Below the pieces are notes generated by a model. It did no database searches. It was not told where the DNA came from and worked only from the letters and a program-made list of their open reading frames with translations. A stretch of DNA of 64,000 nt. Origin: Streptantibioticus cattleyicolor NRRL 8057 = DSM 46488 (GTDB lineage Bacteria > Actinomycetota > Actinomycetes > Streptomycetales > Streptomycetaceae). The stretch's first letter is position 1; each line of letters starts with the position of its first letter. Positions 7,074 to 52,326 of this stretch are shown here, piece after piece. A program made the position numbers and the translations under genes. The stretch lies in NCBI RefSeq assembly GCF_000240165.1, contig NC_017586.1, positions 2,542,001-2,606,000 on the forward strand. The letters are read 5' to 3'.

Positions 7074-8531
7074 TCAGGTCAGGTGGAGCGGCGGCATCAG
7101 GTAGTAGAAGGCGAAGACCGCCGAGACCACGTAGAGGGCGACCGGCACCTCACGGCCGCGGCCGGCCACCAGGCGCAGCACGCAGAAGCTGATGAAGCCC
7201 ATGCCGATGCCGTTGGTGATCGAGTAGGTGAACGGCATCATCAGCATCGTCACGAACGCCGGGATGGCGATGGTGAAGTCGCTCCAGTCGATGTCCCGGA
7301 CGCTGCCCGCCAGGATCAGGAAGCCCACCGCGATCAGCGCCGGGGTGGCCGCCTGCGCCGGGACCATGGTGGCCAGCGGGGTCAGGAAGAGCGAGAGCGC
7401 GAACATCAGGCCGGTGACCACGCTGGCCAGGCCGGTACGGGCGCCCTCGCCGACGCCGGTGGTCGACTCCACGAAGCAGGTGTTGGCCGAGCTGGAGGTG
7501 GCGCCGCCGAGCGCGGTGGCGATCCCGTCCACCATCAGCACCCGGTTCATGCCCGGCAGGTCGCCCTTTTCGGTGAGCAGGTGCGCCTCGTCGCTGACGC
7601 CGAGGATGGTGCCCATCGCGTCGAAGAAGCCGGACAGCAGCACGGTGAAGACGAAGAGCACGCCGGTGACGATGCCCACCTCGTGGAAACCGCCGAACAG
7701 GCTCACCTTGCCGACCAGCCCGAAGTCGGGGGTGGAGACCGGGTTGCCGGGCCACTTGGGGACGGTCAGCCCCCAGGAGGCCGCCGGGACCTTGGCCACC
7801 AGGTCCAGGATCACCGCGAGGACGGTCATGGCCACGATGCTGATCAGGATGGCGCCGGGCACCTTGCGGACGATCAGCCCCAAGGTGATCAGCACCCCGA
7901 GCACGAAGACCAGCACCGGCCAGCCGTTGAGGTGGCCGGTGGCCCCGAGCTGCAACGGAACGGTGGTGTGCGCGGCGTCCGGGACGCGGCTGACGAAGCC
8001 GGAGTCGACCAGGCCGATCATGAAGATGAACAGGCCGATGCCGATGGCGATGGCCTTCCGCAGGCCGAGCGGCACCGCGCTCATCACCCGTTCCCGCAGC
8101 CCGGTCGCGACCAGCAGCATGATCGCCAGACCGGCGAGCACCACCATGCCCATCGCGTCCGGCCAGGACATCCTGGGCGCGAGCTGGAGGGCGACCACGC
8201 TGTTGATGCCGAGCCCGGCGGCGAGCGCGATCGGCACGTTGCCGATCACCCCCATCAGCAACGTGGTGAGCGCCGCGGTCAGCACGGTGGCGGTCACCAA
8301 CTGCCCCCCGGCCAGGTGGTGACCGTACTTGTCCACACCGCTGCCGAGGATGATCGGGTTCAGCACGATGATGTACGCCATCGCGAAGAACGTCGCCAGA
8401 CCACCACGGATCTCACGGGAAACGCTCGACCCCCGCTCGGAGATCTTGAAGAAACGGTCCAGCCCGTTCCGGGCGGGTTGCGGGGCCTGCGGCTGGGCGG
8501 AGCCGACCGGGGCGGTGGCCGAGCTGGGCAT
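7074..8531 (-). CDS. NCS2-family purine (guanine/hypoxanthine) permease
   Basis: A 485-residue membrane protein of the nucleobase cation symporter 2 family, AzgA/PbuG-like branch, with about 12-14 hydrophobic segments. Characteristic stretches are GGLATFFAMAYIIVLNP near residue 45, GLGINS near residue 105, and SSSANTCFVESTTGVGEGART near residue 345, which line the substrate path. It takes up guanine, hypoxanthine or adenine by proton symport. AAGGA lies about six bases before the ATG. A long imperfect palindrome stands upstream (8576-8620) and may control it. Confidence 0.9.
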   Translation of the reverse strand: MPSSATAPVGSAQPQAPQPARNGLDRFFKISERGSSVSREIRGGLATFFAMAYIIVLNPIILGSGVDKYGHHLAGGQLVTATVLTAALTTLLMGVIGNVPIALAAGLGINSVVALQLAPRMSWPDAMGMVVLAGLAIMLLVATGLRERVMSAVPLGLRKAIAIGIGLFIFMIGLVDSGFVSRVPDAAHTTVPLQLGATGHLNGWPVLVFVLGVLITLGLIVRKVPGAILISIVAMTVLAVILDLVAKVPAASWGLTVPKWPGNPVSTPDFGLVGKVSLFGGFHEVGIVTGVLFVFTVLLSGFFDAMGTILGVSDEAHLLTEKGDLPGMNRVLMVDGIATALGGATSSSANTCFVESTTGVGEGARTGLASVVTGLMFALSLFLTPLATMVPAQAATPALIAVGFLILAGSVRDIDWSDFTIAIPAFVTMLMMPFTYSITNGIGMGFISFCVLRLVAGRGREVPVALYVVSAVFAFYYLMPPLHLT

Positions 8532-8779: not shown

Positions 8780-9034
8780 ATGAAGTCGAAGTGGACGCCT
8801 CAGCACGAGACGCCTGAGCCGTTGGAAGCGAACGATGTCGCGATCGTCACCGGCGGCACGATCGTCTGGTTCGTCCTCTTCCTGGTCCAGCTCCCGTTCT
8901 ACGGGTGGTTCGCGGACCGGGGGCACGCGTGGTGGATCTGGAGTTGCCTGGCGGGGGCGGGGCTCGGGGTGATCGGTATCTGGTACGTACGCCGTCGGCG
9001 CGCCGCGATCCAAAGGCACCGCGACCGCGCGTGA
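8780..9034 (+). CDS. DUF2530 membrane protein
   Basis: An 84-residue protein with two predicted transmembrane helices (about residues 22-42 and 50-68) and a short basic C-terminus RRRRAAIQRHRDR, matching DUF2530. The hydrophilic N-terminus contains ETPEPLEANDV, conserved in the family. Its role is unknown; it is a conserved neighbour of the NCS2 permease in Streptomyces. A TAGGCT at 8768-8773 ends six bases before the ATG, pointing to a leaderless transcript. Repeat copy A begins two bases after its stop codon. Confidence 0.82.
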   Translation: MKSKWTPQHETPEPLEANDVAIVTGGTIVWFVLFLVQLPFYGWFADRGHAWWIWSCLAGAGLGVIGIWYVRRRRAAIQRHRDRA

Positions 9035-9035
9035 G

Positions 9036-9555
9036 GGTTCGCTCGCGCTGGCGGTCAGCCATTACCTCCTCAGGGTGCCCCCGGTCCCGCTCTCGTCGTG
9101 GCTGACGTCACGGATTGTTTCCCCCCGCCCACCCGTGGCTGTACTCGTCTAGCGCGGGATGCGCGCTGTCTGGCTGGGGTCCGGGAGCCCTCCGGGGTGA
9201 CTCCTCGCTCCACGTTTCGTCGTCGGCTCTCCGCCGGTCCGCCGGGGCGCTGCGGGGACACCCCTGCACGCCCCCGTTCTGCTGCGTTCCGCGCTGCGGC
9301 ACGGAGGGGGTGAGAAGGAGATCGGGGTGACCCCAACCTCCTCACTCACCCTCTCCCGTGAAGAGAGGCACCCGCACGACGGCCGGAGGGGGTGTGCCGG
9401 GGGTGTCCCCGCAGCGACCCAGCGGGGCGGGCGCAACCTTGGAGCGAAACCTGGAGCGAGGAGTCACCCCCGGCGCGCCCCCGACCCCGCACCGGCAGTA
9501 GGCGAAGCCACCGTGCCGAACCAGACCAAAACCCCACCCCACCCACCCGGCGGGC
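9036..9555. repeat. Repeat copy A: L-R palindromic element
   Basis: This gene-free stretch is a copy of the dispersed repeat family. The left end at 9036-9065 is the intact 30-bp terminal sequence (begins GGTTCGCTCGCGCTGGCGGT). The L half follows to a nested hairpin near 9305-9355, then the R half in opposite polarity. The shared internal block GGTGTCCCCGCAGCGACC is at about 9401-9419, and its inverse is at about 9245-9263. The right terminal sequence is degraded; homology fades near 9555. No transposase and no convincing coding sequence are present. Confidence 0.85.
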
Positions 9556-9596
9556 GTCGCGGTGCGGGGGTGGACGCGGCGGGGTGAGGATGAGGC

Positions 9597-12065
9597 GTGG
9601 AGCGAGGAGAGACCCCGCGGCGGGGACGGAGCCGGTGCGAAGGCGGCCACGGTGTCGCCGGATCGGGGGAACCGTCAGCCACGGATTCGCCGGCCCGACC
9701 GCGTAGCGAACCGGCAACCACGGAAACCCCGGGGCTGTCTCCGGAGGAGGTGGCCGCACGGGTGGCTCGGGGGGACGTCAACGACGTTCCGGCGAGGTCG
9801 TCGCGGTCGGTGCGGGAGATCGTCCGGGCCAACGTGTTGACCCGGTTCAACGCCATCCTGGGGGTCCTCTTCCTGATCGTGCTGGTGGTCGGGCCGGTGC
9901 AGGACGGTCTGTTCGGCGTCGTGATCGTGGCGAACACCGCCATCGGGATCGTGCAGGAGGTGCGGGCCAAGCGGACGCTGGACGGGCTGGCGGTGGTCGG
10001 GGAGGCGCGGCCGGTGGTGCGGCGGGACGGGGTGGCCCGGCCGGTGGCGGCGTCGGCGATCGTGCTGGACGACGTGATCGAGCTGGGCCCGGGCGACAAG
10101 TGCGTGGTGGACGGACGGGTCACGGCGGCGGACGGGCTGGAGATCGACGAGTCGCTGCTGACCGGCGAGGCTGACCCGGTGCACAAGCGGCCCGGGGACC
10201 CGGTGCTGTCGGGGAGTTTCGTGGTGGCCGGCAGCGGGGCGTTCACCGCGACCCGGGTCGGCCGCGAGGCGTACGCGGCCCAACTGGCCGAGGAGGCGAG
10301 CCGGTTCACCCTGGTGCGCTCCGAACTGCGGTCGGGGATCAGCGAGATCCTGCGGTACGTGACGTGGATGATGGTCCCGGTGGCCGTCGGGCTGGTGGCG
10401 AGCCAGTTGTACGTGCAGCGTCACGACTGGCGGGAGGCGGTGCGCCGGATGGTCGGCGGCATCGTGCCGATGGTGCCGGAGGGCCTGGTGCTGCTGACGT
10501 CGGTGGCGTTCGCCATCGGGGTGGTGCGGCTGGGCCGGCGGCGGTGCCTGGTGCAGGAGCTGCCGGCGATCGAGGGGCTGGCCCGGGTGGACACGGTGTG
10601 CCTGGACAAGACCGGCACGCTGACCGAGGGCGGCATGGCACTCACCGAGGTGCGGACGGTGGACGACGCGGTGGCCGACGCGGACGTACGGGAGGTGCTC
10701 GCGGCGCTGGGCCGGGCCGAGCCGCGGCCCAACGCCAGCCTCCGGGCGATCGTCGACGGGTGCCCGGACGGTTCCGGGCGGCTGCGGCCGGCGGACGCGT
10801 TGCCGTTCTCCTCGGCCCGCAAGTACAGCGGTGCGCGGCTGTCCGGGCCGGACGGCGGGGACGGCGCGACCTGGCTGCTGGGCGCCCCCGACGTCCTGTT
10901 GCCGCCGGGCGATCCCCGGCTCGCCGAGGCCGACGCGCTCGGGGCGCGCGGGCTGCGGGTGCTGCTGCTCGCCCGCAGCGGACGGGCCCCGCACGACCCG
11001 CGGGTGACGCAGGGGGCGCGGCCGGCCGCGTTGGTGGTGCTGGAGCAGCGGCTGCGCGGCGACGCGGCGGAGACGCTCGCGTACTTCGCCCGGCAGCGGG
11101 TCGCCGCCAAGGTGATCTCGGGCGACAACGCGGTCTCCGTGGGCGCCGTCGCCGCCCGGCTGGGGCTGGCGGGGGCCGACGAGCCGGTGGACGCCCGGGG
11201 GTTGCCCGGCACCCCGGACGCGATGGCCCCGGCGGTCGAACGCGGCACGGTCTTCGGCCGGGTCACCCCGCGGCAGAAGCACGACATGGTCACCGCGCTG
11301 CGTTCGCGCGGCCACGTGGTGGCGATGACCGGGGACGGCGTCAACGACGTGCTGGCGCTGAAGGAGGCCGACATCGGGGTGGCGATGGGGTCGGGGAGCG
11401 CGGCGACCCGCGCGGTGGCGCAGATCGTGCTGCTCGACGACGGGTTCTCGGCGCTGCCGTCGGTGGTCGCCGAGGGCCGCCGGGTGATCGGCAACATCAC
11501 CCGGGTCTCCCGGCTGTTCCTCACCAAGACGGTCTACTCGGTGCTGCTGGCGCTGCTGGTGGTGGTCTCGCGGGTGCCGTACCCGTTCCTGCCGCGCCAT
11601 CTGACGCTGCTGAGCACGCTGACGATCGGGGTGCCCTCGTTCTTCCTGGCGCTGGCGCCGGGCGACGAGCGGGCCCGGCCGCGGTTCGTGCGCCGGGTGA
11701 TGCGGTTCGCGCTGCCGGCCGGGGTGGTGGCGGGTGCGGCGGCGTTCGCGTCGTACGTGATGGCGCGGGCGGTCTACGGCGGGGCGGCGGGGACGCGGGA
11801 GGCGCAGACCAGCGCGGCGACGCTGACGCTCTTCGTGGTGTCGATGTGGGTGCTGACGATCGTGGCGCGGCCGTGGACGTGGTGGCGGGTGCTGCTGGTG
11901 GCGGCAATGGCGGCCGGGTTCGTGGTGGTGCTGGCCGTGCCGGTGCTGCAACGGTTCTTCGCGCTGCGGCTGGTGGGGGCCGAGGCGCCGTGGGGCGCGG
12001 CGGGCATCGGCGCGGTGGCGTGCCTGGTGGTCGAGGCGGTGTGGCGGCGGAACGGGGAGGGGTGA
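9597..12065 (+). CDS. ctpE: CtpE-like cation-transporting P-type ATPase
   Basis: This 822-residue membrane ATPase contains the phosphorylation motif DKTGTLT near residue 336, the actuator LTGEAD loop near 190, GDGVND near 579, and the PEGL sequence in the fourth membrane helix (MVPEGLVLLTS). PEGL is the mark of the CtpE subgroup, linked to calcium uptake in mycobacteria. Hydrophobic segments lie near residues 80-125, 255-310 and 640-820. The start is uncertain. The first roughly 45 residues from GTG 9597 are low-complexity and encoded by sequence bordering repeat copy A. The conserved protein begins at about GLSPEEVAARV (near 9735), with a GTG at 9750 too close to its GGAGGAG. Confidence 0.87.
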   Translation: MERGETPRRGRSRCEGGHGVAGSGEPSATDSPARPRSEPATTETPGLSPEEVAARVARGDVNDVPARSSRSVREIVRANVLTRFNAILGVLFLIVLVVGPVQDGLFGVVIVANTAIGIVQEVRAKRTLDGLAVVGEARPVVRRDGVARPVAASAIVLDDVIELGPGDKCVVDGRVTAADGLEIDESLLTGEADPVHKRPGDPVLSGSFVVAGSGAFTATRVGREAYAAQLAEEASRFTLVRSELRSGISEILRYVTWMMVPVAVGLVASQLYVQRHDWREAVRRMVGGIVPMVPEGLVLLTSVAFAIGVVRLGRRRCLVQELPAIEGLARVDTVCLDKTGTLTEGGMALTEVRTVDDAVADADVREVLAALGRAEPRPNASLRAIVDGCPDGSGRLRPADALPFSSARKYSGARLSGPDGGDGATWLLGAPDVLLPPGDPRLAEADALGARGLRVLLLARSGRAPHDPRVTQGARPAALVVLEQRLRGDAAETLAYFARQRVAAKVISGDNAVSVGAVAARLGLAGADEPVDARGLPGTPDAMAPAVERGTVFGRVTPRQKHDMVTALRSRGHVVAMTGDGVNDVLALKEADIGVAMGSGSAATRAVAQIVLLDDGFSALPSVVAEGRRVIGNITRVSRLFLTKTVYSVLLALLVVVSRVPYPFLPRHLTLLSTLTIGVPSFFLALAPGDERARPRFVRRVMRFALPAGVVAGAAAFASYVMARAVYGGAAGTREAQTSAATLTLFVVSMWVLTIVARPWTWWRVLLVAAMAAGFVVVLAVPVLQRFFALRLVGAEAPWGAAGIGAVACLVVEAVWRRNGEG

Positions 12066-15205: not shown

Positions 15206-15253
15206 GTCGGTCCTTCCGGGTGGAGACTGTTTTCGGATGAGGCGCATTGTGGC
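15206..15253. promoter_or_regulatory. Short leader of the sacsin-like gene
   Basis: Only 48 bases separate the start codon from repeat copy B. The Shine-Dalgarno GGAAGGAC lies here. The promoter must lie in this gap or inside the repeat. No clear -10 or -35 was recognised. Confidence 0.3.
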
Positions 15254-15952
15254 GGTTCGCTCGCGCCGGCGGTCAACCACGGACTCCTCCGGGTGCGCCC
15301 GTCCCCCTATCGTCGCGGCTGCCACCGGCCATCACGTCCTCGGGGTAACCGCGTTCCCCTTTCATCGCGACTGACGCCGGCCACGACGTCCTCGGGGTGC
15401 GCCCATTTCCGTTTCGTCGTGGCTGAGGTCACAGATTGTTTCCCCCCGCCCACCCGTGGCTGTATTCGCATAGCGCGGGATGCGCACTGTCTTCCTGGGT
15501 TCCCGGGGGCCCTCCGGGGTGACTCCTCGCTCCGCGTATCCCCCACAGTTGCGCTCCGGCTACTGGGTCGCTGCGGGGACACCCCTGCACGCCCCCGTCC
15601 GGTCTCGTTCCGCGCTGCGGCACGGAGGGGGTGAGAAAAAGACCGGGGTGACCCCAACCTCCTTACTCACCCCCACCCGCGAAGAGAGGCACCCGCACGA
15701 CGGCACAAGGGGGTGTGCCGGGGGTGTCCCCGCAGCGACCCAACGGGGCGGGCGCAACCTTGGAACGAAACCTGGAGCGAGGAGTCACCCCGGCGCGCCC
15801 CCGACCCCGCACCGGCAATAGGCGAACCCACCCCGTGCCGAACCAAACCAAAACCCCACCAACCACCCACCGGACAGGGGCGAAGGGGCCACCCCGGAAC
15901 CCCGAACCGGGCGAACCGGCCACCACGTAATGGCTGACCGCCAGCGCGAGCG
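15254..15952. repeat. Repeat copy B: full L-R palindromic element, about 0.7 kb
   Basis: This is the longest copy. The left end (from 15254) is a degraded terminal sequence, then come three tandem versions of a roughly 52-bp subunit recognisable by CTCCTCGGGGTGCGCCC-like sequence (about 15280-15420). The L half then runs to the central hairpin near 15625-15670. The R half runs to the right terminal sequence at 15927-15952, 26 of 30 bases intact. The inverted core blocks are at about 15567-15585 and 15724-15742. The stop codon of the DUF3027 gene lies five bases beyond. Short open frames inside are not conserved as proteins. Confidence 0.87.
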
Positions 15953-15957
15953 CAGAC

Positions 15958-33518: not shown

Positions 33519-34184
33519 ATGCCGAGCCTGCCTCCCTCGCCGTCCCCGTCCTCGTCCCCGTCCGGTCTGCTCGACCGGTGGTGCGTCCTCCTGCGCCGGG
33601 CCGGCGCCACCGCGGATCCGGTGCCGTACGGGGAGAACCTGATCGCCCGCTGGTCCGAACCGCACCGGCGCCACCACACCACCGACCACCTGCGGACCGT
33701 CCTCGACCACGCCGAGGAACTGGCCGCGCACGCCACCGACCCGGACGCGGTGCTGCTGGCCGGCTGGTTCCACGACGCGGTGTACCGGCCGGAACGCTCC
33801 GAGAACGAGGAACGCAGCGCGGCGCTGGCCGAACGGGCGCTGCGCGAGGCGGGCCTGGCGGGTCCGCTCACCGCGGAGGTCGCCCGGCTCGTCCGGCTCA
33901 CCGCCGACCACGACCCCGCGCCCGGCGACCGCAACGGTGAACTCCTCACCGACGCCGACCTCGCCGACCTCGCCGGCTCCCCCGAGCGCTACGCCGCCTA
34001 CGCCTCTTCCGTCCGGGACGAGTACGCCTTCGTCCCGGACGAGGAGTTCCGCGCCGCGCGGGCCGAGGTGCTGCGTCAACTCCTGTCGCGGCCACGGGTG
34101 TTCCGTACTCCGTACGGTGCCGTGCACTGGGAGCGTGCGGCGCGGCACAACGTGGGGACGGAGCTTGCCCTGTTGTCACCGTGA
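33519..34184 (+). CDS. HD-domain metal-dependent phosphohydrolase
   Basis: A 221-residue protein with a single HD domain. The metal ligands are H in RRHHTTDHL (near residue 50), the HD pair in AGWFHDAVY (near residue 85) and a later D in LLTDADLADL (near residue 150). Such proteins hydrolyse nucleotides or other phosphoesters; this group has no assigned substrate. ATG 33519 is favoured since CACAAT at 33506-33511 would serve as a leaderless -10; ATG 33510 would add three residues. The N-terminus is Pro/Ser-rich. Repeat copy C begins 16 bases after the stop. Confidence 0.83.
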   Translation: MPSLPPSPSPSSSPSGLLDRWCVLLRRAGATADPVPYGENLIARWSEPHRRHHTTDHLRTVLDHAEELAAHATDPDAVLLAGWFHDAVYRPERSENEERSAALAERALREAGLAGPLTAEVARLVRLTADHDPAPGDRNGELLTDADLADLAGSPERYAAYASSVRDEYAFVPDEEFRAARAEVLRQLLSRPRVFRTPYGAVHWERAARHNVGTELALLSP

Positions 34185-34199
34185 CGCCCCGCCCGCGCG

Positions 34200-34552
34200 G
34201 GTTCGCTCGCGCCGGCGGCCAGCCATTACGTGGTGTCCGGTTCGCCCGTTTCAGGGTGCCGGGGTGGCCTCCGGCGGCCCCTGCCCGGTGGGTGGTTGGT
34301 GGGTTTTTGGTTTGGTTCGGCACCGGGTGGGTTCGCCTATTGCCGGTACGGGGTCGGGGGCGCGCCGGGGGTGACTCCTCGCTCCAGGTATCCGCCACAG
34401 CTTGGCTCCGGCTACTGGGTCGCTGCGGGGACACCCCCGGCACACCCCCTTCTGTCCGTTCGCGGGTGCCTCTCTTCGCGGGGGGAGGGGATGTGGGGGT
34501 TGGGGTGGCCCCGATCTTTTCGTTGCCGAGTGCGGGGCGCAGCGCGGAACGG
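34200..34552. repeat. Repeat copy C: single R half (reverse orientation)
   Basis: The outer end at 34200-34229 matches the 30-bp terminal sequence at 28 of 30 positions. The body is the R-type half read in the opposite direction to copies A, B and F, with the core GGTCGCTGCGGGGACACC at about 34419-34436. The centre and a few bases of the L half (GCAGCGCGGAAC, about 34539-34551) follow, then homology stops. The sequence beyond is decayed coding DNA. Confidence 0.83.
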
Positions 34553-34658
34553 GGGTTGGGGCGTTGTTGCGGCCCAGGCGGCGGAGCTGGCCGCCGAGCA
34601 GGTGGCACCACCCAAGGCGACCGGTTACCGGACCCGGCTCGCGGACGGCCGGTCATGA
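34553..34658 (+). pseudogene. C-terminal remnant of an unknown gene
   Basis: Directly after repeat copy C an open frame with no start ends in about 30 residues, finishing PPKATGYRTRLADGRS, then TGA. The last codons overlap an ATG as ATGA at 34655-34658, the typical junction of translationally coupled genes. This suggests the tail of a gene whose front was lost at the repeat. I cannot name the family. Confidence 0.4.
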
Positions 34659-34835
34659 CCGCAGGCCGGGTGGTGCGCGCCGCCGAGGCCGGGCTGCGGT
34701 TCCTGCCGATGCTGGATCGGCTACAACGGCATCGACTCCGGCTTCCAGGGCACACCGGCGGAGATCGCGAGCTACCTCGGGCTCATCGCGCTGCTCACCC
34801 TCACCATCATCCTGCTCGCCCGGCGCGACCGATGA
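34655..34835 (+). pseudogene. Internally deleted membrane-protein gene
   Basis: ATG 34655 opens with MTAGRVVRAAEAGLRFLPML, a plausible N-terminus. After about 20 codons the sensible frame shifts. From 34713 another frame reads WIGYNGIDSGFQGTPAEIAS, then a hydrophobic helix (YLGLIALLTLTIILLA) and RRDR before TGA at 34833-34835. The start and end of a membrane protein seem joined after loss of the middle. The stop overlaps the lipase start as ATGA, as in an operon. Confidence 0.5.
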
Positions 34836-36007
34836 GCCGACGCCGCCGGGCACGGCGGATCCTCAAGTCGGTCGCGTTACTCGCCGCCTTGGCCGCCCTG
34901 GCGGTGGCCACCTCGATCGGCCTGCTCTACGACGAGCACCGCACGGCGCTCACCCTGCCCGCGCCCACCGGGCCGTACCCGGTCGGACGCACCACGTACG
35001 ACTGGGTGGACCACTCCCGCACCGACCCCCTCGCCCCCGACGGCCGACCGCGTGAACTCCCGGTCTGGATCTGGTACCCGGCCGCGCCCGCCGGGGCCTC
35101 CCGCCCGGCCGACTACCTGCCCCCACCCTGGCGGACCGCCCTCACCCGGTACCAGGGCCCGGTGATGCGCACCCTGTTCACCCGCGACCTGTCACTGGTC
35201 CACGCCCACAGCACACAGAACGCGCCGGTCGCGCCCGGCCGTTCCCCCTACCCCGTCGTCCTCCTGCGATCCGGCATCGGCGCCCTGGCCACCGACTACA
35301 CCACCCTCGCCGAGGACCTGGCCAGCCACGGCTACGTCGTGGTGGGGATGGACGCGCCGTACAGCACCACCGTGGTCGTCCTCCCGAACGGCCAGGTGGT
35401 GACCAGGACGACCGTCGGCAACCCCAAACTCATCGCCCTGTGGTCCGCCGACACCTCCTTCGTCCTCGACCAACTCACCCGGCTCGACAACGCCGATCCG
35501 CCCGGGCCCTTCACCCACCGCCTCGACCCCAACGCGGTAGGCATCCTCGGGCGCTCCTTCGGCGGAGCGACCGCGGCCCAGTTCTGCCACGACGACACCC
35601 GCTGCCGCGCGGGCATCGACCTCGACGGCACACTCCACGGCACCGTCCTCCACGACGGCCTCCGCCAACCCTTCCTCTTCCTCACCGCCGCCGACCACGG
35701 CGACCCCACCACCCCCGCCAACCGCGCCGCACTGGCCGACATCCGTTCCGTCTACCGCACCCCCGCCAACCACCGCTTCCGGCTCACCATCCAAGGCACC
35801 GGCCACTTCAACTTCAGCGACCAATCCCTCCTCAAAGACCCCACCCTCTCCCGCCTGGCCCACCTGACCGGCCCCCTCTCCCCCCGCCACGCCCTCACCA
35901 CCGCCCTCCTCCTGCGCTTCTTCGACACCTACCTACGCCACCACCCCGCCCACTTCCCCGGAGACCTCACAGCCCTCCACCCCGCAATACACCCGGTCCA
36001 CCCCTGA
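34832..36007 (+). CDS. PAF-acetylhydrolase-like lipase/esterase
   Basis: A 391-residue alpha/beta-hydrolase resembling platelet-activating factor acetylhydrolase II. Residues 1-30 hold a basic stretch and one hydrophobic helix (signal anchor). The nucleophile elbow is GRSFGG near residue 240, the likely Asp is in GIDLDGT near residue 262, and His in GTGHFNFSD near residue 320. It is expected to act outside the membrane on phospholipid or short esters. The start overlaps the preceding gene remnant. It lies between repeat copies C and D, and copy D starts two bases after its stop. Confidence 0.85.
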   Translation: MSRRRRARRILKSVALLAALAALAVATSIGLLYDEHRTALTLPAPTGPYPVGRTTYDWVDHSRTDPLAPDGRPRELPVWIWYPAAPAGASRPADYLPPPWRTALTRYQGPVMRTLFTRDLSLVHAHSTQNAPVAPGRSPYPVVLLRSGIGALATDYTTLAEDLASHGYVVVGMDAPYSTTVVVLPNGQVVTRTTVGNPKLIALWSADTSFVLDQLTRLDNADPPGPFTHRLDPNAVGILGRSFGGATAAQFCHDDTRCRAGIDLDGTLHGTVLHDGLRQPFLFLTAADHGDPTTPANRAALADIRSVYRTPANHRFRLTIQGTGHFNFSDQSLLKDPTLSRLAHLTGPLSPRHALTTALLLRFFDTYLRHHPAHFPGDLTALHPAIHPVHP

Positions 36008-36009
36008 AA

Positions 36010-36355
36010 CCCCGCTCACCCCGATCTCCTCACCCACCCCCGTGCCGCAGCGCGGAACGAAACCGGACGGGGGCGCGCAGGGGTGTCCCCGCAGCGACCC
36101 AGCAGCCGGAGCGCAACCGTGGCGGATACGCGGAGCGAGGAGACACCCCGGAGGGCCCCCGGAAACCCAGGCAGACAGAGCGCACCCCGCACTGTACGAA
36201 CACAGCCACGGGTGGGCGGGGGGAAACAGTCTGTGACGCCAGCCACGACGAGACGGGGGACCGGGGGCACCCCGAGGAGGCCGGGGCCGAGGGGGAACGC
36301 CCTGTGCGGGGGAACGGGCGTACCCCGAGGAGTCCGACGCCAGCGCGAGCGAACC
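36010..36355. repeat. Repeat copy D: single L half (reverse orientation)
   Basis: Begins two bases after the lipase stop with half of the central hairpin (TCACCCCGATCTCCTCACCC). The L-type half follows in reverse, with GGTGTCCCCGCAGCGACC at about 36083-36100. Two tandem copies of the 52-bp CTCCTCGGGG-type subunit sit near 36265-36335. The outer end keeps the last 20 bases of the terminal sequence (CCAGCGCGAGCGAACC near 36340-36355). Its final base is also the first base of the next gene's stop codon. Confidence 0.85.
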
Positions 36356-36828
36356 TATCGGGTCGCGCCCTCGGGCCACACCACCCTCACCGGAACGCCC
36401 ACCCGTCCCGCATGGGCCACCACGTCGGCCGTCCCTCCGTACCCCCGGGCCGGGAGGCCGTCCCACACGGCCACGAGTTCGTCCACCAGGCCCACGAGCA
36501 TCTCGCTGCCCCGCATGTGCGCGACGGGATCGGATGCGACGAGCCCCGTTTCATGCACCCGCGACGCAGCCCGCAACAACGCGTCGTACGTCGCGTGATG
36601 CCAGCCCGGAAGCGACTCCCGGTACTCACGCGCGGGTACCACCACCTCGACGCGCCCGCCGCGTTCCAGCACCGCCTGCGCGAACCACGCGTCCGGCCCG
36701 TCGGCGATACAGGAGACCCCCACCAAGTCCGCAGCGGGATACCCCCGGACGACGTCTCCGATGGCCACCACGACCGCCTTCGCCACCCCCTCCGGCAGCC
36801 CCCGATGCCCGGTGATCCCGACCCGCAT
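36355..36828 (-). CDS. SLOG-like (YpsA-related) Rossmann-fold protein
   Basis: A 157-residue protein beginning MRVGITGHRGLPEGVAKAV. The ITGHR.L motif and the later Gly-rich and acidic segments are the mark of the SLOG/YpsA group of nucleotide-binding Rossmann folds. Several SLOG proteins sense or make nucleotide signals in defence or regulation. Here it is encoded 18 bases after, and in the same operon as, an XRE-TPR regulator. The pairing is common in Streptomyces, as far as I recall, but the function is unknown. The stop codon overlaps the end of repeat copy D. Confidence 0.7.
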   Translation of the reverse strand: MRVGITGHRGLPEGVAKAVVVAIGDVVRGYPAADLVGVSCIADGPDAWFAQAVLERGGRVEVVVPAREYRESLPGWHHATYDALLRAASRVHETGLVASDPVAHMRGSEMLVGLVDELVAVWDGLPARGYGGTADVVAHAGRVGVPVRVVWPEGATR

Positions 36829-36846
36829 GCCGTACCGTCCTCGCTC

Positions 36847-38070
36847 TCACATGTACACGTCGTGCAGTCGGTCGTCGAACTCCCGGACGATCCTGGGCGG
36901 CGTAGCGGACGAGTACGCGCGGCGGAAGCCACGCGCCCGCTCCACCACGCGCCCGGAGCGGTACCGCAGTCCCGTCTCGACGGCCTGCGTGGCGAGCGTG
37001 TAGGCCGCTTCCACGTGCCCGGCCACGAAATGCCCTGTCGCCACGTCGAGTTGGGCCAGGGCACGTTGCTTGGCGTGAGCGGTCGGCATCACGGCCGCAC
37101 CGTCGTCGCGCGCGCCGAAGACCCACGACGCGAGCCTGAGCCGGGCCCCGCAGGAGATCCGGCAGATGTCCACCTTCCGCTCGTCGAAGGCGAACACCCA
37201 CGGCCATGGCGGCGCATCCTGCCCTGGCATACGTCTCGCCGCCGCGCGGCTACGCGTCAGGGCCCGGTCGCACAGCCGCTCGTCCCCGGCGGTCGCATAC
37301 GCCTGGGCCTCCACCGCGCTCAGCCACGCGTCCGCCACCACGGGGGCGTTCGCGCCGAGTTGCTGTCGTGCCGAACGGATCAGGCGCAACGCCTGGGCAG
37401 CGTTGCCGGTGTCCGCTTCCATCTGAGCCAGACTGCCGATCTGGTAGGCGGCGAGCAGCGGATCACCGGACCGCCGGGCCGCTTTGATCGCCGCGCCGTA
37501 CCAGGTGCGCGCCGAGCCGTGATCAGCCATGTCCCAACTGAGCCAGCCCGCCAGTCCCGCCGCCTCACTGCCCGCCGCGGCCAAGCGAACCCGCCGTTCC
37601 CCTCCCTCCGCCTCCCTCGCGGCGGCCTGAACCAGCCGGAGATGTGCCAGTACGACATCCGACAACTGACGGGACGGCATCGTCCCGTCCAACCGGCGAA
37701 GCGCCGTCGTCGTCGCCCGGAGCATGGCCCCGCGGTCGTCGTCCGCATCCGCCGCTGCGGGCAGTACGGCAAGAGCCGGCGCCACCACCACTGCTGCGGC
37801 CCCTGCCAGAAGTCCTCGACGTTCCACCGGATCGCTTCCGTCCTTCCCCGCTGCCGTGTCGGCGAGGCCGACCAAGCCGGGTGGAATGCCCAGGTAAGCG
37901 GCGGCTCTCGCCAGGATCTCCATGGTGTACGGGCCTCGCCCCCGCGATTCGAGTCTCGAAACAGCCGACTGCGTGAGCCCGCAGGCCCCGCCCAACTGCG
38001 CTTGACTGATCCGCCGCTCAACACGAGCCAACCGGATCACCCGCCCGTAATCCCCCCGCACCCGACGCAT
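36847..38070 (-). CDS. XRE-family regulator with TPR-like sensor domain
   Basis: A 407-residue regulator. Residues 10-65 form a helix-turn-helix (SQAQLGGACGLTQSAVSRLES). After a linker (VERRGLLAGAAAVVVAPAL) about 290 residues of tetratricopeptide-like helices follow (for example YGAAIKAARRSGDPLLAAYQ). This architecture occurs many times in Streptomyces genomes; some members control development or secondary metabolism by sensing small molecules or peptides through the TPR part. It is the first gene of an operon with the SLOG-like protein and is divergent from the gene at 38266. A 17-bp palindrome in the shared promoter region may be its operator. Confidence 0.87.
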   Translation of the reverse strand: MRRVRGDYGRVIRLARVERRISQAQLGGACGLTQSAVSRLESRGRGPYTMEILARAAAYLGIPPGLVGLADTAAGKDGSDPVERRGLLAGAAAVVVAPALAVLPAAADADDDRGAMLRATTTALRRLDGTMPSRQLSDVVLAHLRLVQAAAREAEGGERRVRLAAAGSEAAGLAGWLSWDMADHGSARTWYGAAIKAARRSGDPLLAAYQIGSLAQMEADTGNAAQALRLIRSARQQLGANAPVVADAWLSAVEAQAYATAGDERLCDRALTRSRAAARRMPGQDAPPWPWVFAFDERKVDICRISCGARLRLASWVFGARDDGAAVMPTAHAKQRALAQLDVATGHFVAGHVEAAYTLATQAVETGLRYRSGRVVERARGFRRAYSSATPPRIVREFDDRLHDVYM

Positions 38071-38148
38071 CGAGGATCGCTCGCTTCGACCAGTTCATTC
38101 GTCCCGCTCTCCGGACGGTAGGTCAACGTCCACGGCGACTCGCACCCC

Positions 38149-38165
38149 TATGCGCCGCGCGCATA
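38149..38165. promoter_or_regulatory. 17-bp palindrome between XRE regulator and 38266 gene
   Basis: TATGCGC and GCGCATA are perfect seven-base inverted repeats around CGC. The site lies about 80 bases before the XRE start and 100 before the divergent gene. This is where an autoregulatory XRE operator would be expected. It is an inference from symmetry and position. Confidence 0.45.
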
Positions 38166-38265
38166 CGAACACCCATCACTCGCATCAAGTGTGGCCCAGG
38201 TCACCCGCATCCCGCTTCAGTCCTCGCGAAGAGCACTGCCACGAGTGAGGGAGGCCGTACCGGCG

Positions 38266-39174
38266 ATGAACACCGCCGCCACCGAACCGATGACTTCCCG
38301 GCAACGGCAATCGCCGACCGGGACGCTTCCGCAACCAGGCATCGTGCCGTACATCACCCGATGGAGCGCGGAGCAACCCCCGCCCACCCGCGTCATCGCC
38401 AAGGGCAGGCGCCTCGCCTACGCGGACGAGCGGCCGTACGACCGCGACACATCCGGAGTGTTGTGGACGCGCGTTCCCTCACTGCCGGGCAAGGGGAAGC
38501 CGCGACTTGGCGCGGTACATGCCTTGCGGCAGCGGCGCGCCATGGAGGAATTGCTGTGCCAGGTGTGTGCCGAGCCCTCCGACCGCAACCAGGACGGCGT
38601 GCTCTGGCTGCTCGGCGAAGACCTGGCGGCCCACTCGGCCCACGATCGCTTCGGGCTCACCACGACGCATCCTCCGGTATGCGCGCCCTGCGCTCCACGA
38701 TCGGTACGCGCCTGCCCTCACCTGCGACAAAGGCACGTGACACTCCGCGTCCGCTCCTGCGAACCCGTTGGCGTGCGGGGCGCGCTCTACCGCCCCGGCT
38801 TTCCCGACCCTGCCTTCGTCGATGTGGCAGGCGTGGCATTCACCGACCCCCGCATCCACTGGATCCGAGCCGGTCAACTGATCACGGCCCTCCGCGACTT
38901 CACAGTGCAGGAGCTGCCCCCCCGACCACAACACCGTTTGAACACCGATCACCCCGATCTCCCCTCTCACCCACCCCCGTCCCGCAGCGCGGAACGCAAC
39001 AGAACGGGGGCGCGCAGGGGTGTCCCCGCAGCGACCCAACGCACCGGCGGAAAGCCGACAACGAAACGGGGAGCGAGGAGACACCCCGGAGGGCCCCCGG
39101 ACCCCAGGCAGACAGAGCGCATCCCGCACTGTACGAGTACAGCCACGGGTGGGCGGGCGGGAAAAAGTCCGTGA
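38266..39174 (+). CDS. Hypothetical Cys-rich protein whose C-terminus is encoded by repeat E
   Basis: A 302-residue frame. Residues 1-225 look like a conserved Streptomyces hypothetical protein: YITRWSAEQPP, YADERPYDRDTSGVLWTRVP, LCQVCAEP, GVLWLLGED and VCAPCAPRSV (two cysteine pairs, probably metal-binding). From about residue 227 (nucleotide 38945) the frame enters repeat copy E and gains about 75 low-complexity residues (SAERNRTGARRGVPAATQ). The native stop appears to have been lost. ATG 38266 follows GGGAGG by eleven bases. The protein is usually found near XRE regulators; its function is unknown. Confidence 0.68.
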   Translation: MNTAATEPMTSRQRQSPTGTLPQPGIVPYITRWSAEQPPPTRVIAKGRRLAYADERPYDRDTSGVLWTRVPSLPGKGKPRLGAVHALRQRRAMEELLCQVCAEPSDRNQDGVLWLLGEDLAAHSAHDRFGLTTTHPPVCAPCAPRSVRACPHLRQRHVTLRVRSCEPVGVRGALYRPGFPDPAFVDVAGVAFTDPRIHWIRAGQLITALRDFTVQELPPRPQHRLNTDHPDLPSHPPPSRSAERNRTGARRGVPAATQRTGGKPTTKRGARRHPGGPPDPRQTERIPHCTSTATGGRAGKSP

Positions 39175-39245
39175 CGCCAGCCACGGCGAAGCGGAATCGG
39201 GCGCACCCCGAGGAGGTAATGGCTGACCGCCAGCGCGAGCGAACC
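38945..39245. repeat. Repeat copy E: single L half with perfect 30-bp end
   Basis: Starts with half of the central hairpin (ATCACCCCGATCT), continues as a reversed L half with GGTGTCCCCGCAGCGACC at about 39020-39037, and ends in a perfect copy of the 30-bp terminal sequence (39216-39245). It has one 52-bp subunit. The end is one base away from the stop codon of the gene on the other side. Its first part is translated as the tail of the gene at 38266. Confidence 0.87.
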
Positions 39246-39246
39246 G

Positions 39247-39579
39247 TCAGTGGAGCGCACCCACCGCCGCCGCCACGCCGTGGTTCTCGCAGACCCAACG
39301 CGGATCCTCCCCCAACTCCGGCTCCACGGAGAGGAGTTCGTGGCACGAGGAACAGCACGGCCACCGGGTGCCGTGCTGTTCGAGCAGCGCTTCCTGGACG
39401 TCCTGCGCCACCAGCCCGCAGACGAAGGCGACGCCCTGCGGCCACTGCTCGGCCCACCAGCGCCGGTGGGCGACGGCGTCCTCGACCAGGGAGACGGCGG
39501 CGGCGTCGGCGATGCCGTGGGCGGCCAGGTCGGCGAGGACGTGGGCCCGGGCGGCGTGCAGGGCGGGTTCGAGGTCCAT
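39247..39579 (-). CDS. Hypothetical protein with cysteine pair
   Basis: A 110-residue protein. The first half (LEPALHAARAHVLADLAAHG) is helical. The centre has WPQGVAFVCGLVAQDVQEALLEQHG followed by WPCCSSCHELLSVEPEL and a final VCENHGVAAAVGALH, so the cysteines and histidines could bind a metal. The family is not known to me. ATG 39579 is the natural start. It is divergent from murR, with about 60 bases between the two start codons. Confidence 0.68.
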   Translation of the reverse strand: MDLEPALHAARAHVLADLAAHGIADAAAVSLVEDAVAHRRWWAEQWPQGVAFVCGLVAQDVQEALLEQHGTRWPCCSSCHELLSVEPELGEDPRWVCENHGVAAAVGALH

Positions 39580-39603
39580 GGTCCCATTCTGCCGCGCGCG
39601 CCC

Positions 39604-39638
39604 TTGACGCTCCGTAGCGGTGAAACTACTTTTCAGTT
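39604..39638 (+). promoter_or_regulatory. Leaderless murR promoter with overlapping operator
   Basis: The -35 TTGACG (39604-39609) and -10 TACTTT (39627-39632) are separated by 17 bases; transcription would start at the GTG of murR. TGAAA (39621-39625) and TTTCA (39631-39635) form an inverted repeat over the -10 box, a fitting site for autoregulation by the RpiR-type regulator. The elements are direct sequence observations; the regulation is inferred. Confidence 0.65.
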
Positions 39639-40559
39639 GTGACGCGGAACGCGAAGGTAACTTCCGGGGCTTCCGGGACCGACGGCCGCCCGCTGGCGGC
39701 CAAGGTCCGTAACCTCGCCCCCACCATGACCCGTTCCATGCAGCGGGTCGCCGAGGCGGTGGCGCGGGATCCGGCGGGGTGCGCGCAGCTGACGGTGACC
39801 GCGCTGGCGCAGCGCACCGGCACCAGCGAGGCGACCGTGGTGCGCACCGCGCGGATCCTCGGCTACCCCGGCTACCGGGATCTGCGGCTCGCCCTGGCCG
39901 CGTTCGCCGCACGGCAGGCGGCCGGGGCGCCGCCCGCGGTGACGGCGGACATCGCGGTGGACGACCCGCTGGCCGACGTGGTCGCCAAGCTCGCCCGGGA
40001 CGAGCAGGAGACGCTGGCCGACACCGCGGCCGGGCTCGACGTCGGCCAGCTGGAGGCGGCGGTCGCCGCGCTCGCCGCGGCCCGCCGGGTGGACGTCTAC
40101 GGGATAGGCGCCTCCGCCCTGGTCGGCCAGGACCTGGCGCAGAAGCTGCTGCGGATCGGGGTGATCGCGCACGCCCACAACGATCCGCATCTGGCGGTCA
40201 CCAACGCCGTGCAACTGCGCCAGGGCGACGTCGCCCTGGCGATCACCCACTCCGGGAACACCGTCGACGTCATAGAACCGCTGCGCGTCGCCTTCGACCA
40301 CGGCGCCACCACGGTGGCGATCACCGGCCGTCCGGACGGCGCCGTGGCGCGGTACGCCGACCACGTGCTGACCACGTCCAGATCCCGGGAGAGCGAGCTG
40401 CGGCCGGCCGCGATGGCCAGCCGGACGAGTCAACTGCTCGTGGTGGACTGCCTGTTCATCGGGATCGCGCAGCGTACCTACGAGCGGGCCGCGCCCGCGC
40501 TCTCCGCGTCGTACGAGGCGCTCGCGCACCGGCACACCGCGCGCGGCGCCCGCCCCTGA
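39639..40559 (+). CDS. murR: MurR/RpiR-family regulator with SIS domain
   Basis: A 306-residue regulator. Residues 20-95 are the RpiR-type helix-turn-helix (VTALAQRTGTSEATVVRTARILGYPG). Residues 140-285 are a SIS sugar-phosphate-binding domain, with GIGASALVGQDLAQKL and ALAITHSGNTVDVIEPL carrying the SxS-type loops. It lies 35 bases upstream of murQ and should repress it until MurNAc 6-phosphate or a related sugar phosphate binds. The start is leaderless, with an operator over its -10 box. Confidence 0.92.
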   Translation: MTRNAKVTSGASGTDGRPLAAKVRNLAPTMTRSMQRVAEAVARDPAGCAQLTVTALAQRTGTSEATVVRTARILGYPGYRDLRLALAAFAARQAAGAPPAVTADIAVDDPLADVVAKLARDEQETLADTAAGLDVGQLEAAVAALAAARRVDVYGIGASALVGQDLAQKLLRIGVIAHAHNDPHLAVTNAVQLRQGDVALAITHSGNTVDVIEPLRVAFDHGATTVAITGRPDGAVARYADHVLTTSRSRESELRPAAMASRTSQLLVVDCLFIGIAQRTYERAAPALSASYEALAHRHTARGARP

Positions 40560-51604: not shown

Positions 51605-51649
51605 ATCGCTTCGGCAACGGGGGCGTGTCCTACGGTATTACGACTCACG

Positions 51650-52326
51650 TCGCCGTCAGCCCCGGACTCCTCGGGGTGCGCACCGTTCCCCGTCTCGTCG
51701 TGGCTGGCGTCACGGATGTTTCCCCCCGCCCACCCGTGGCTGTACGCGTATAGCGCGGGGGGCGCACTGTCTGCCTGGGTTTCCGGGGGCCCTCCGGGGT
51801 GACTCCTCGCTCCACGTATCGTCTTCGGCTCTCCGCCGCCCCGCTGGGTCGCTGCGGGGACACCCCTGCACGCCCCCGTCCGGTCTCGTTCCGCGCTGCG
51901 GCACGGGGTGGGTGAGAAGGAGATCGGGGTGACCCCAACCTCCTTACTCACCCCTTCCCGCGAAGAGAGGCACCCGCCAACCGGACAGAAGGGGGTGTGC
52001 CGGGGGTGTCCCCGCAGCGACCCAGCGGACCGGCCGCAACCTTGGAACGAAACCTGGAGCGAGGAGTCACCCCCGGCGCGCCCCCGACCCCGCACCGGCA
52101 GTAGGCGAAGCCCACCCGTGCCGAACCGAACCAAAACCCCACCAACCACCCACCGGGCGGAGGTGAAGGGGTGCGCCCAGCCGTGGGTCACGGGGATCCG
52201 GGGGTACCCCCGCCATCACGGGGCCGCCGGGGCAACCCCGGAAACCTGAAACGGGCGGACCCGACCACGGAGTAATGGCTGACCGCCAGCGCGAGCGAAC
52301 CCGCTGGCCACCAGCGTGAGCGAACC
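51650..52326. repeat. Repeat copy F: full L-R palindrome with doubled right end
   Basis: The best-preserved complete copy. GGGTGACTCCTCGCTCCA (51797-51814) recurs inverted at 52055-52072, and the core GGTCGCTGCGGGGACACC (51847-51864) recurs inverted at about 52005-52022; both pairs are exact. The centre is a nested hairpin at 51910-51953 (GGGTGAG/CTCACCC, AAGGAG/CTCCTT, GGGGT/ACCCC). The left terminal sequence is decayed. The right one is perfect at 52272-52301 and followed by a second, diverged copy to 52326, which touches the nagK dre site. Confidence 0.9.

Follow-up and report, generated by a model that had tools for sequence, protein, structure and literature searches.

Repeats of the REP type are intergenic, present in many copies and hairpin-forming, and the attC site of integrons is a folded recombination site. 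The described systems closest to the locus considered here are the MITE-bounded composites, exemplified by the TIME-COMPs (PMC13367494) and by a MITE-flanked blaPER-1 region (PMC3934969), the gene-cassette arrays of integrons, whose parts are named in PMC6856922, and REP and other intergenic palindromic repeats, as outlined in PMC1525189. Palindrome hairpins are also cut by SbcCD/Mre11-Rad50 and can trigger rearrangements (PMC3315005, PMC6265447), a process that we put forward, by analogy with those accounts, as a possible cause of what we describe. In Streptantibioticus cattleyicolor NRRL 8057 we find three gene islands that have single arms of a palindromic repeat at their borders or inside them, and that probably represent a new variant among gene islands bounded by repeats.

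The window, by which we mean the whole stretch of 64,000 nucleotides that was analysed (contig NC_017586.1, positions 2,542,001 to 2,606,000), contains copies of an element of ~600 bp that is an imperfect near-palindrome, with two arms (P5 and P3), a hairpin tip in mid-element and terminal inverted repeats of ~30 bp; in the orientation of copy A, the order is terminal repeat, P5 arm, hairpin tip, P3 arm and inverted terminal repeat. The repeat is lineage-specific, lies in short intergenic gaps and has no recognised gene; mechanical reading frames of up to 200 aa overlap copy F. As single-stranded DNA, copies F and B each form a long hairpin (z -10.3 with 20 shuffles and z -7.0 with 100 shuffles, respectively); the folding of the solo arm E is unremarkable (z -0.8 as DNA, -1.4 as RNA). 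The element has the MITE traits of shortness, many copies and terminal inverted repeats, and it resembles the REP-type repeats in being intergenic, multi-copy and hairpin-forming; it differs from them in its length, in its terminal inverted repeats, in its confinement to one lineage as far as searched, in having no Y1 transposase and in its link to gene islands.

Searching the 8.1-Mb genome with signatures of the two arms (the P3 signature is 31 nt, and for both signatures up to 3 mismatches were allowed, so more diverged copies would escape) gave 42 matches for P3 and 48 for P5, against 0 and 0 in reversed controls, which places the two arms that had drawn attention to this locus, D and C, far above chance. 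None of these matches lies on the smaller contig (C1, 1.8 Mb); they all fall on C2, in the range 0.3-5.55 Mb. Judged by coordinates, 40 P5/P3 signature pairs are full copies. Eight P5 matches are unpaired: L033 is a full copy whose P3 has diverged, L034 is a copy with an internal deletion, and the others are the six solo arms C, E, X1, X2, X3 and Y. The two unpaired P3 matches are the internally deleted copy L035 and D. Among signature matches there are thus 41 full copies versus 6 P5 halves and 1 P3 half, and because the halves are so rare and are found only in islands, the suggestion that D and C are two independent half insertions is disfavoured. Among the 31 of 41 full copies that were aligned, mean identity is 88% in P5 and 85% in P3; an earlier whole-element search had yielded 178 candidates, 40 of which were scored.

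BLAST against 150 genomes of the family, with three candidates scored in each, recovered the repeat in the source genome and weak matches to its centre in two genomes of one other genus. In these (L096-L099, from G012 and G025) a diverged repeat of the other genus matches the centre of the element, with a profile match in 3 of 4 loci, and forms tandem and inverted copies of its own. An exact 30-mer of the repeat found nothing in the named genome collection, where the source genome may be excluded, the plasmid and phage collections gave no match, and the literature, judged by titles and abstract openings, gave no description of the repeat. With a recognisable family in one genome only, as far as searched, no intermediate states are seen. 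Above the gathering score, Rfam has no match to the repeat in the window, its sole match there being a SAM riboswitch (RF00162, 46044-46206, minus strand, 65 bits).

All 54 matches to the terminal repeat (up to 3 mismatches, a limit at which a partner with more diverged ends would escape) have an arm signature no more than 514 bp away, and therefore no autonomous partner with these ends is visible. The integron integrase model TIGR02249 gave five weak matches in the source genome, none over the cut-off, and the 14 control genomes likewise match below it; the Y1 REP-associated transposase family PF01797 has no match in the source genome, with control matches in 5 of the 14 genomes. Nor was a target-site duplication seen in the copy flanks inspected by eye.

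The island in the window (island 1), its parts and flanks, and the cargo-free copies of the window are as follows:

9025..9579, plus strand: full copy A, an insertion without cargo (profile match, synteny)
15236..15953, plus strand: full copy B, without cargo, plus an additional outer P5 fragment at 15236-15322 (profile match, synteny)
33519..34184, plus strand: left conserved flank, HD-domain gene (PF01966, E 2e-4)
34190..39250: whole of island 1, 5.06 kb, with D and E as its ends, absent from relatives (synteny)
34199..34551, minus strand: D, comprising the P3 arm, the outer terminal repeat, the entire central hairpin and ~43 nt of inner P5 (profile match, model 345-696)
34563..34658, plus strand: 3' remnant of a regulator gene, presumably of PadR type, cut off by D (83% DNA identity to G034 from 34569)
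34655..34835, plus strand: remnant of a small membrane-protein gene ("membrane" being our own reading) with an internal deletion (match to G034, L104, in two pieces, 7246-7386 and 7551-7609)
34832..36007, plus strand: lipase / PAF-acetylhydrolase-like gene, open frame (PF03403, E 4e-21)
36016..36355, minus strand: C, solo P5 arm (profile match, model 116-390, at 36016-36290; outer repeat end 36355)
36355..36828, minus strand: gene labelled SLOG in the preliminary description (homologue near that of HYP in S. lushanensis, L117)
36847..38070, minus strand: XRE-type regulator (HTH_31/HTH_3, Pfam)
38266..38949, plus strand: hypothetical gene (HYP), whose frame continues into E (seven Streptomyces homologues)
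38949..39249, minus strand: E, solo P5 arm with its inner end at the hairpin tip (profile match, model 89-391)
39247..39912, minus strand: right conserved flank gene, convergent with the HD gene (next conserved DNA after the HD gene in 7/7 relatives)
51637..52300, plus strand: full copy F, without cargo (profile match, synteny)

D and C do stand where the preliminary description put them, arranged like a full element read on the minus strand; their outer terminal inverted repeats are at 34199 and 36355. The lipase gene and the remnants of a decayed operon that it placed between them are real as well, as borne out by the PF03403 match and by the same gene order in G034. It had also put part of the central hairpin on each side; D in fact keeps both hairpin arms and ~43 nt of P5, and C ends at the tip, such that the two share 46 profile columns and a simple split of one element is unsupported. 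The SLOG name has no Pfam family behind it, and we take that identity to be plausible only from the start motif of the gene; the right flank gene likewise has no match in Pfam. The outer terminal repeat of D starts 14 bp past the HD stop codon and its inner junction abuts the truncated padR, C has its inner end at the hairpin tip 8 bp beyond the lipase stop and an outer end that overlaps the stop of the "SLOG" gene, and at E the outer terminal repeat runs to 39245, beside the stop of the conserved flank gene. Six of the seven HYP homologues align to query residue 217-219 of 229, the other being cut at residue 176 near a contig end.

For comparison with relatives, 10 regions picked among the best HD-gene matches were fetched, 7 of which hold the HD gene, giving seven genomes in four genera; 52 of 61 genomes, the source genome counted, have a match to this gene with an E-value of 1e-30 or lower. 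In all seven, synteny stops at 34135-34191 and restarts at 39253-39378, a result repeated with longer stretches of G027 and G015, and the genes flanking D and E are adjacent or almost so. Because these breakpoints fall at D and E, the insertion comprises all 5.06 kb between D and E, not 1.5 kb, and the earlier proposal that arms bracket the cargo holds at that larger scale, with E rather than C as the partner of D. The interval corresponding to D to E is 330-460 bp in five relatives and ~1.4 kb in two; the two larger gaps contain what we take to be an MFS-type gene (this and the other family names for gap genes are our presumptive readings), one smaller gap contains its remnant, and the other four contain a short gene missing from this place in the window. 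Since gap content differs among the relatives, the site between the HD and right flank genes varies between genera.

The cargo has counterparts elsewhere. The nearest match of the lipase is in G034, of another genus (73% over residues 194-391), where the padR, membrane and lipase genes have the same order, read across the ends of two overlapping contigs, and where the lipase itself is without its first part; the HD gene is on a different contig, and the ~8 kb read to each side of the operon showed no repeat. In S. lushanensis, homologues of the "SLOG" and HYP genes are 1.7 kb apart, with no repeat near them by profile scan (the scan of relatives covered 44 loci and left out L106 and L174-L178).

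It had been proposed that the arms might form a composite unit able to carry genes, and this genome does contain two further arm-cargo-arm sets, each with different cargo:

Island 2 (L031, which begins at position 2,302,500 of its contig): full copy - (unknown gene, regulator-like gene, flavoprotein) - X1 - (CYTH gene) - X2 - (SDR, quinone oxidoreductase, TetR) - X3
Island 3 (L032): Y - (SDR, XRE, aldo-keto reductase, alpha/beta hydrolase) - P5 fragments - full copy

Pfam backs the flavoprotein, CYTH and TetR names in island 2 and has no match for the regulator-like gene; the SDR, reductase and hydrolase names are our reading of the translations. For both islands the relatives are 8 of ten genomes searched. 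Island 2 is absent from all eight, with synteny stopping at 1772-1874 (the outer end of P3) and restarting at 8785-8786, just beyond the solo arm X3. Island 3, which spans from the solo arm Y to the P3 end, is absent from 7 of the 8 (synteny stops at 2701-2746 and restarts at 7610-7617); in the eighth (L159) synteny restarts only at 9402. At the island 3 site in G016, which is of another genus and one of these seven relatives, there is an XRE gene (L162:11207-12079) with 42% aa identity to the cargo XRE, and a profile scan found no repeat beside it, so part of the island 3 cargo could predate the arms.

The outermost arms coincide with synteny breakpoints in all three islands. All six solo P5 arms found with the signature lie in islands, in one orientation and on the P5 side of the P3-bearing copy, an arrangement with a probability of ~(1/4)^6 under independent random placement, although arms within an island are hardly independent. 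If D is a full copy minus most of its P5, the three islands fit the formula (P5-cargo)n-P5-P3, with n = 2, 3 and 1. The five full copies checked (A, B, F and two in L033) have no cargo, whereas cargo accompanied every solo arm found. Of these copies, A, B and F sit in 160-660 bp gaps of otherwise collinear DNA (A and B were compared with three relatives and F with two, the G012 stretch ending at the HD gene), and in L033 two full copies separated by 8 kb have conserved, collinear DNA between them. Of the two gaps in L033, the right-hand one is present in 5/5 relatives and the left-hand one in 2/5; for the remaining relatives, the contig ends on the left side in two and the left-hand DNA of G015 has no match. 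The single arms at island borders and inside islands suggest that the element marks or aids the entry of foreign genes. The original observation is thus confirmed and its interpretation partly supported, and the finding grows to a 5-kb island that is one of three.

The repeat is most likely a recombination and breakage hotspot at which foreign DNA was captured, by a mechanism that we infer. We give an even chance to a course of events in which a resident repeat became a site of gain at three places, giving (P5-cargo)n-P5-P3. Blocks of DNA, each bringing its own P5 arm, would enter next to a resident copy, on its P5 side, and in island 1 (n = 2) this would produce E - (HYP, XRE, "SLOG") - C - (lipase, membrane, padR) - P5-P3, from which a late deletion may have removed most of the last P5 and the start of padR, leaving D. 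Breakage at the tip of the hairpin, together with recombination among copies, would join arms to cargo in place of a dedicated recombinase.

The positions of the arm ends and the relationships among copies bear on this scheme. The tip lies near profile columns 347-349, and the inner ends of C, E and X2 are at columns 349, 350 and 348; by profile, X1 and X3 end before the tip (331 and 338) and Y after it (421). Pairwise identity in P5 is nearly independent of that in P3 (r 0.11, n 465). Four of the 465 copy pairs differ in identity across the tip at the Bonferroni level, and a fifth narrowly misses; in the pair L003/L008 there is 1 mismatch in 199 on one side versus 19 in 200 on the other. The more similar side of the four mosaic pairs is P5 in two and P3 in two, and a faster-changing P3 alone is therefore no explanation. 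Mosaic pairs and low linkage point to exchange between copies, and low linkage of the arms could also come from a star-like burst of copies. Taken together with the solo arms C, E and X2 that end at the tip, the mosaic pairs favour breakage and recombination at the palindrome. Islands 2 and 3 weaken this view: they have an intact P5-P3 copy, so breakage of that copy alone is insufficient, and the extra P5 arms must have had another copy or the incoming cargo as their source. The arm nearest to X2 is X3, of the same island (149 shared columns), a closeness that local duplication fits as well and that also weakens the breakage and recombination view. D and E have the same two nearest full copies, but true pairs were no better than mismatched pairs in a control; as the test of common descent is thus without power, the similarity of the D and E arms is not used. 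A narrower proposal, in which the P5 arm is itself the joining site of gene blocks that stack on the P5 side, with the tip as exchange point and no integrase encoded beside it, seems to us distinctly improbable.

Several other histories could be imagined for these loci. The islands might have formed first by other means, full elements inserting later and losing P3 by palindrome deletion, with the solo arms as decay products. We consider this rather unlikely: full copies do occupy intergenic gaps, copies L034 and L035 do have internal deletions, and G016 has its XRE gene at the island 3 site without repeats, but the solo arms found are confined to islands (6/6) at a constant orientation and side, the outermost arms are at the breakpoints of all three islands, and the arm that is lost is P3 in six cases and P5 in one (D, partly). 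Least credible is the reading advanced at the outset, that D and C are one full element split by 1.5 kb of lipase cargo. Their order and orientation are correct for it, and D is the only P3 signature match placed without an adjoining P5 arm; against this stand the 46 columns that D and C have in common, the breakpoint in relatives at E instead of C, and an inner end of C that stops at the tip just as those of E and X2 do. Islands 2 and 3 contradict the split too, with an intact P5-P3 copy at the P3 end and extra P5 arms past each cargo block. As a candidate, one split copy made of D and C was rejected on the column overlap and synteny.

The two known architectures that the islands most recall fare no better than improbable. 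In a cassette-like system, P5 would be a recombination site brought in by each cargo block, and a recombinase would act on the folded hairpin; this is improbable, but it accounts for the shared orientation of the arms, for inner arm ends that lie 8-27 bp past a stop codon at C, X1, X2 and X3, and for the distance between C and E (rank 32 and 19 of 36), which is expected if each came with its own block. The likeness to integron arrays, with the parts named in PMC6856922, lies in gene blocks that alternate with related, palindrome-derived sites of uniform orientation. In contrast to such arrays, no IntI exceeds the curated cut-off in this genome, no attI is recognised, and the solo arm E is without unusual folding. 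The arms are uniformly oriented, but the blocks are multi-gene and their directions vary, the cargo genes of island 3 being reversed and starting beside Y, and X2 is nearest to X3 in its own island. A composite transposon, with the inverted repeats at the ends of an island recognised by a transposase in trans so that the island moves as a unit, is very improbable as an account, although the outer ends of D and E do carry terminal repeats in opposite orientation. The MITE-bounded composites, as outlined in the two reports, likewise have a block of passenger genes bounded by short elements with terminal inverted repeats. In the present islands, by contrast, single arms as well as whole copies stand between the blocks, in direct orientation, and no partner transposase was found; every terminal-repeat match is close to an arm signature, the PF01797 search found no Y1 transposase, and no target duplication was seen in the flanks inspected. 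None of the islands has complete copies on both sides of its cargo, as MITE composites do: island 1 has only arms, and in islands 2 and 3 just one end is a full copy. Inner solo arms would be left unexplained by such a transposon.

If, as the preferred scheme of capture at a resident repeat would have it, the arms help to join cargo, then a short repeat would account for the places and the manner in which genes are gained in the otherwise collinear core of this genome, and its signature of solo arms in one orientation at island borders could be sought in other genomes. If the arms play no joining part, the islands are still a clear case of solo repeat arms marking recent gene gain.

Some copies have further P5 material beside them. 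Truncated outer P5 fragments stand in tandem ahead of the P5 end of full copies, on the P5 side in those inspected; they occur in the left flanks of L020, L022, L023, L027 and L030, at L032:6687-6983, at L033:2580-2749 and 11507-11681, and at 15236-15322 in the window. In 5 of 30 copies the fragment has an identical endpoint, CCGGGGTGA, adjoining the following terminal repeat. In several copies the outer terminal repeat is flush with a gene stop codon, TGACGG or TGAGGG preceding TTCGC, as at position 39245 of the window, L032:2794-2800 and L032:6700-6710. The element may provide a stop codon to an adjoining gene; the hydrolase gene of island 3 has its last codons and its TAA stop inside the repeat.
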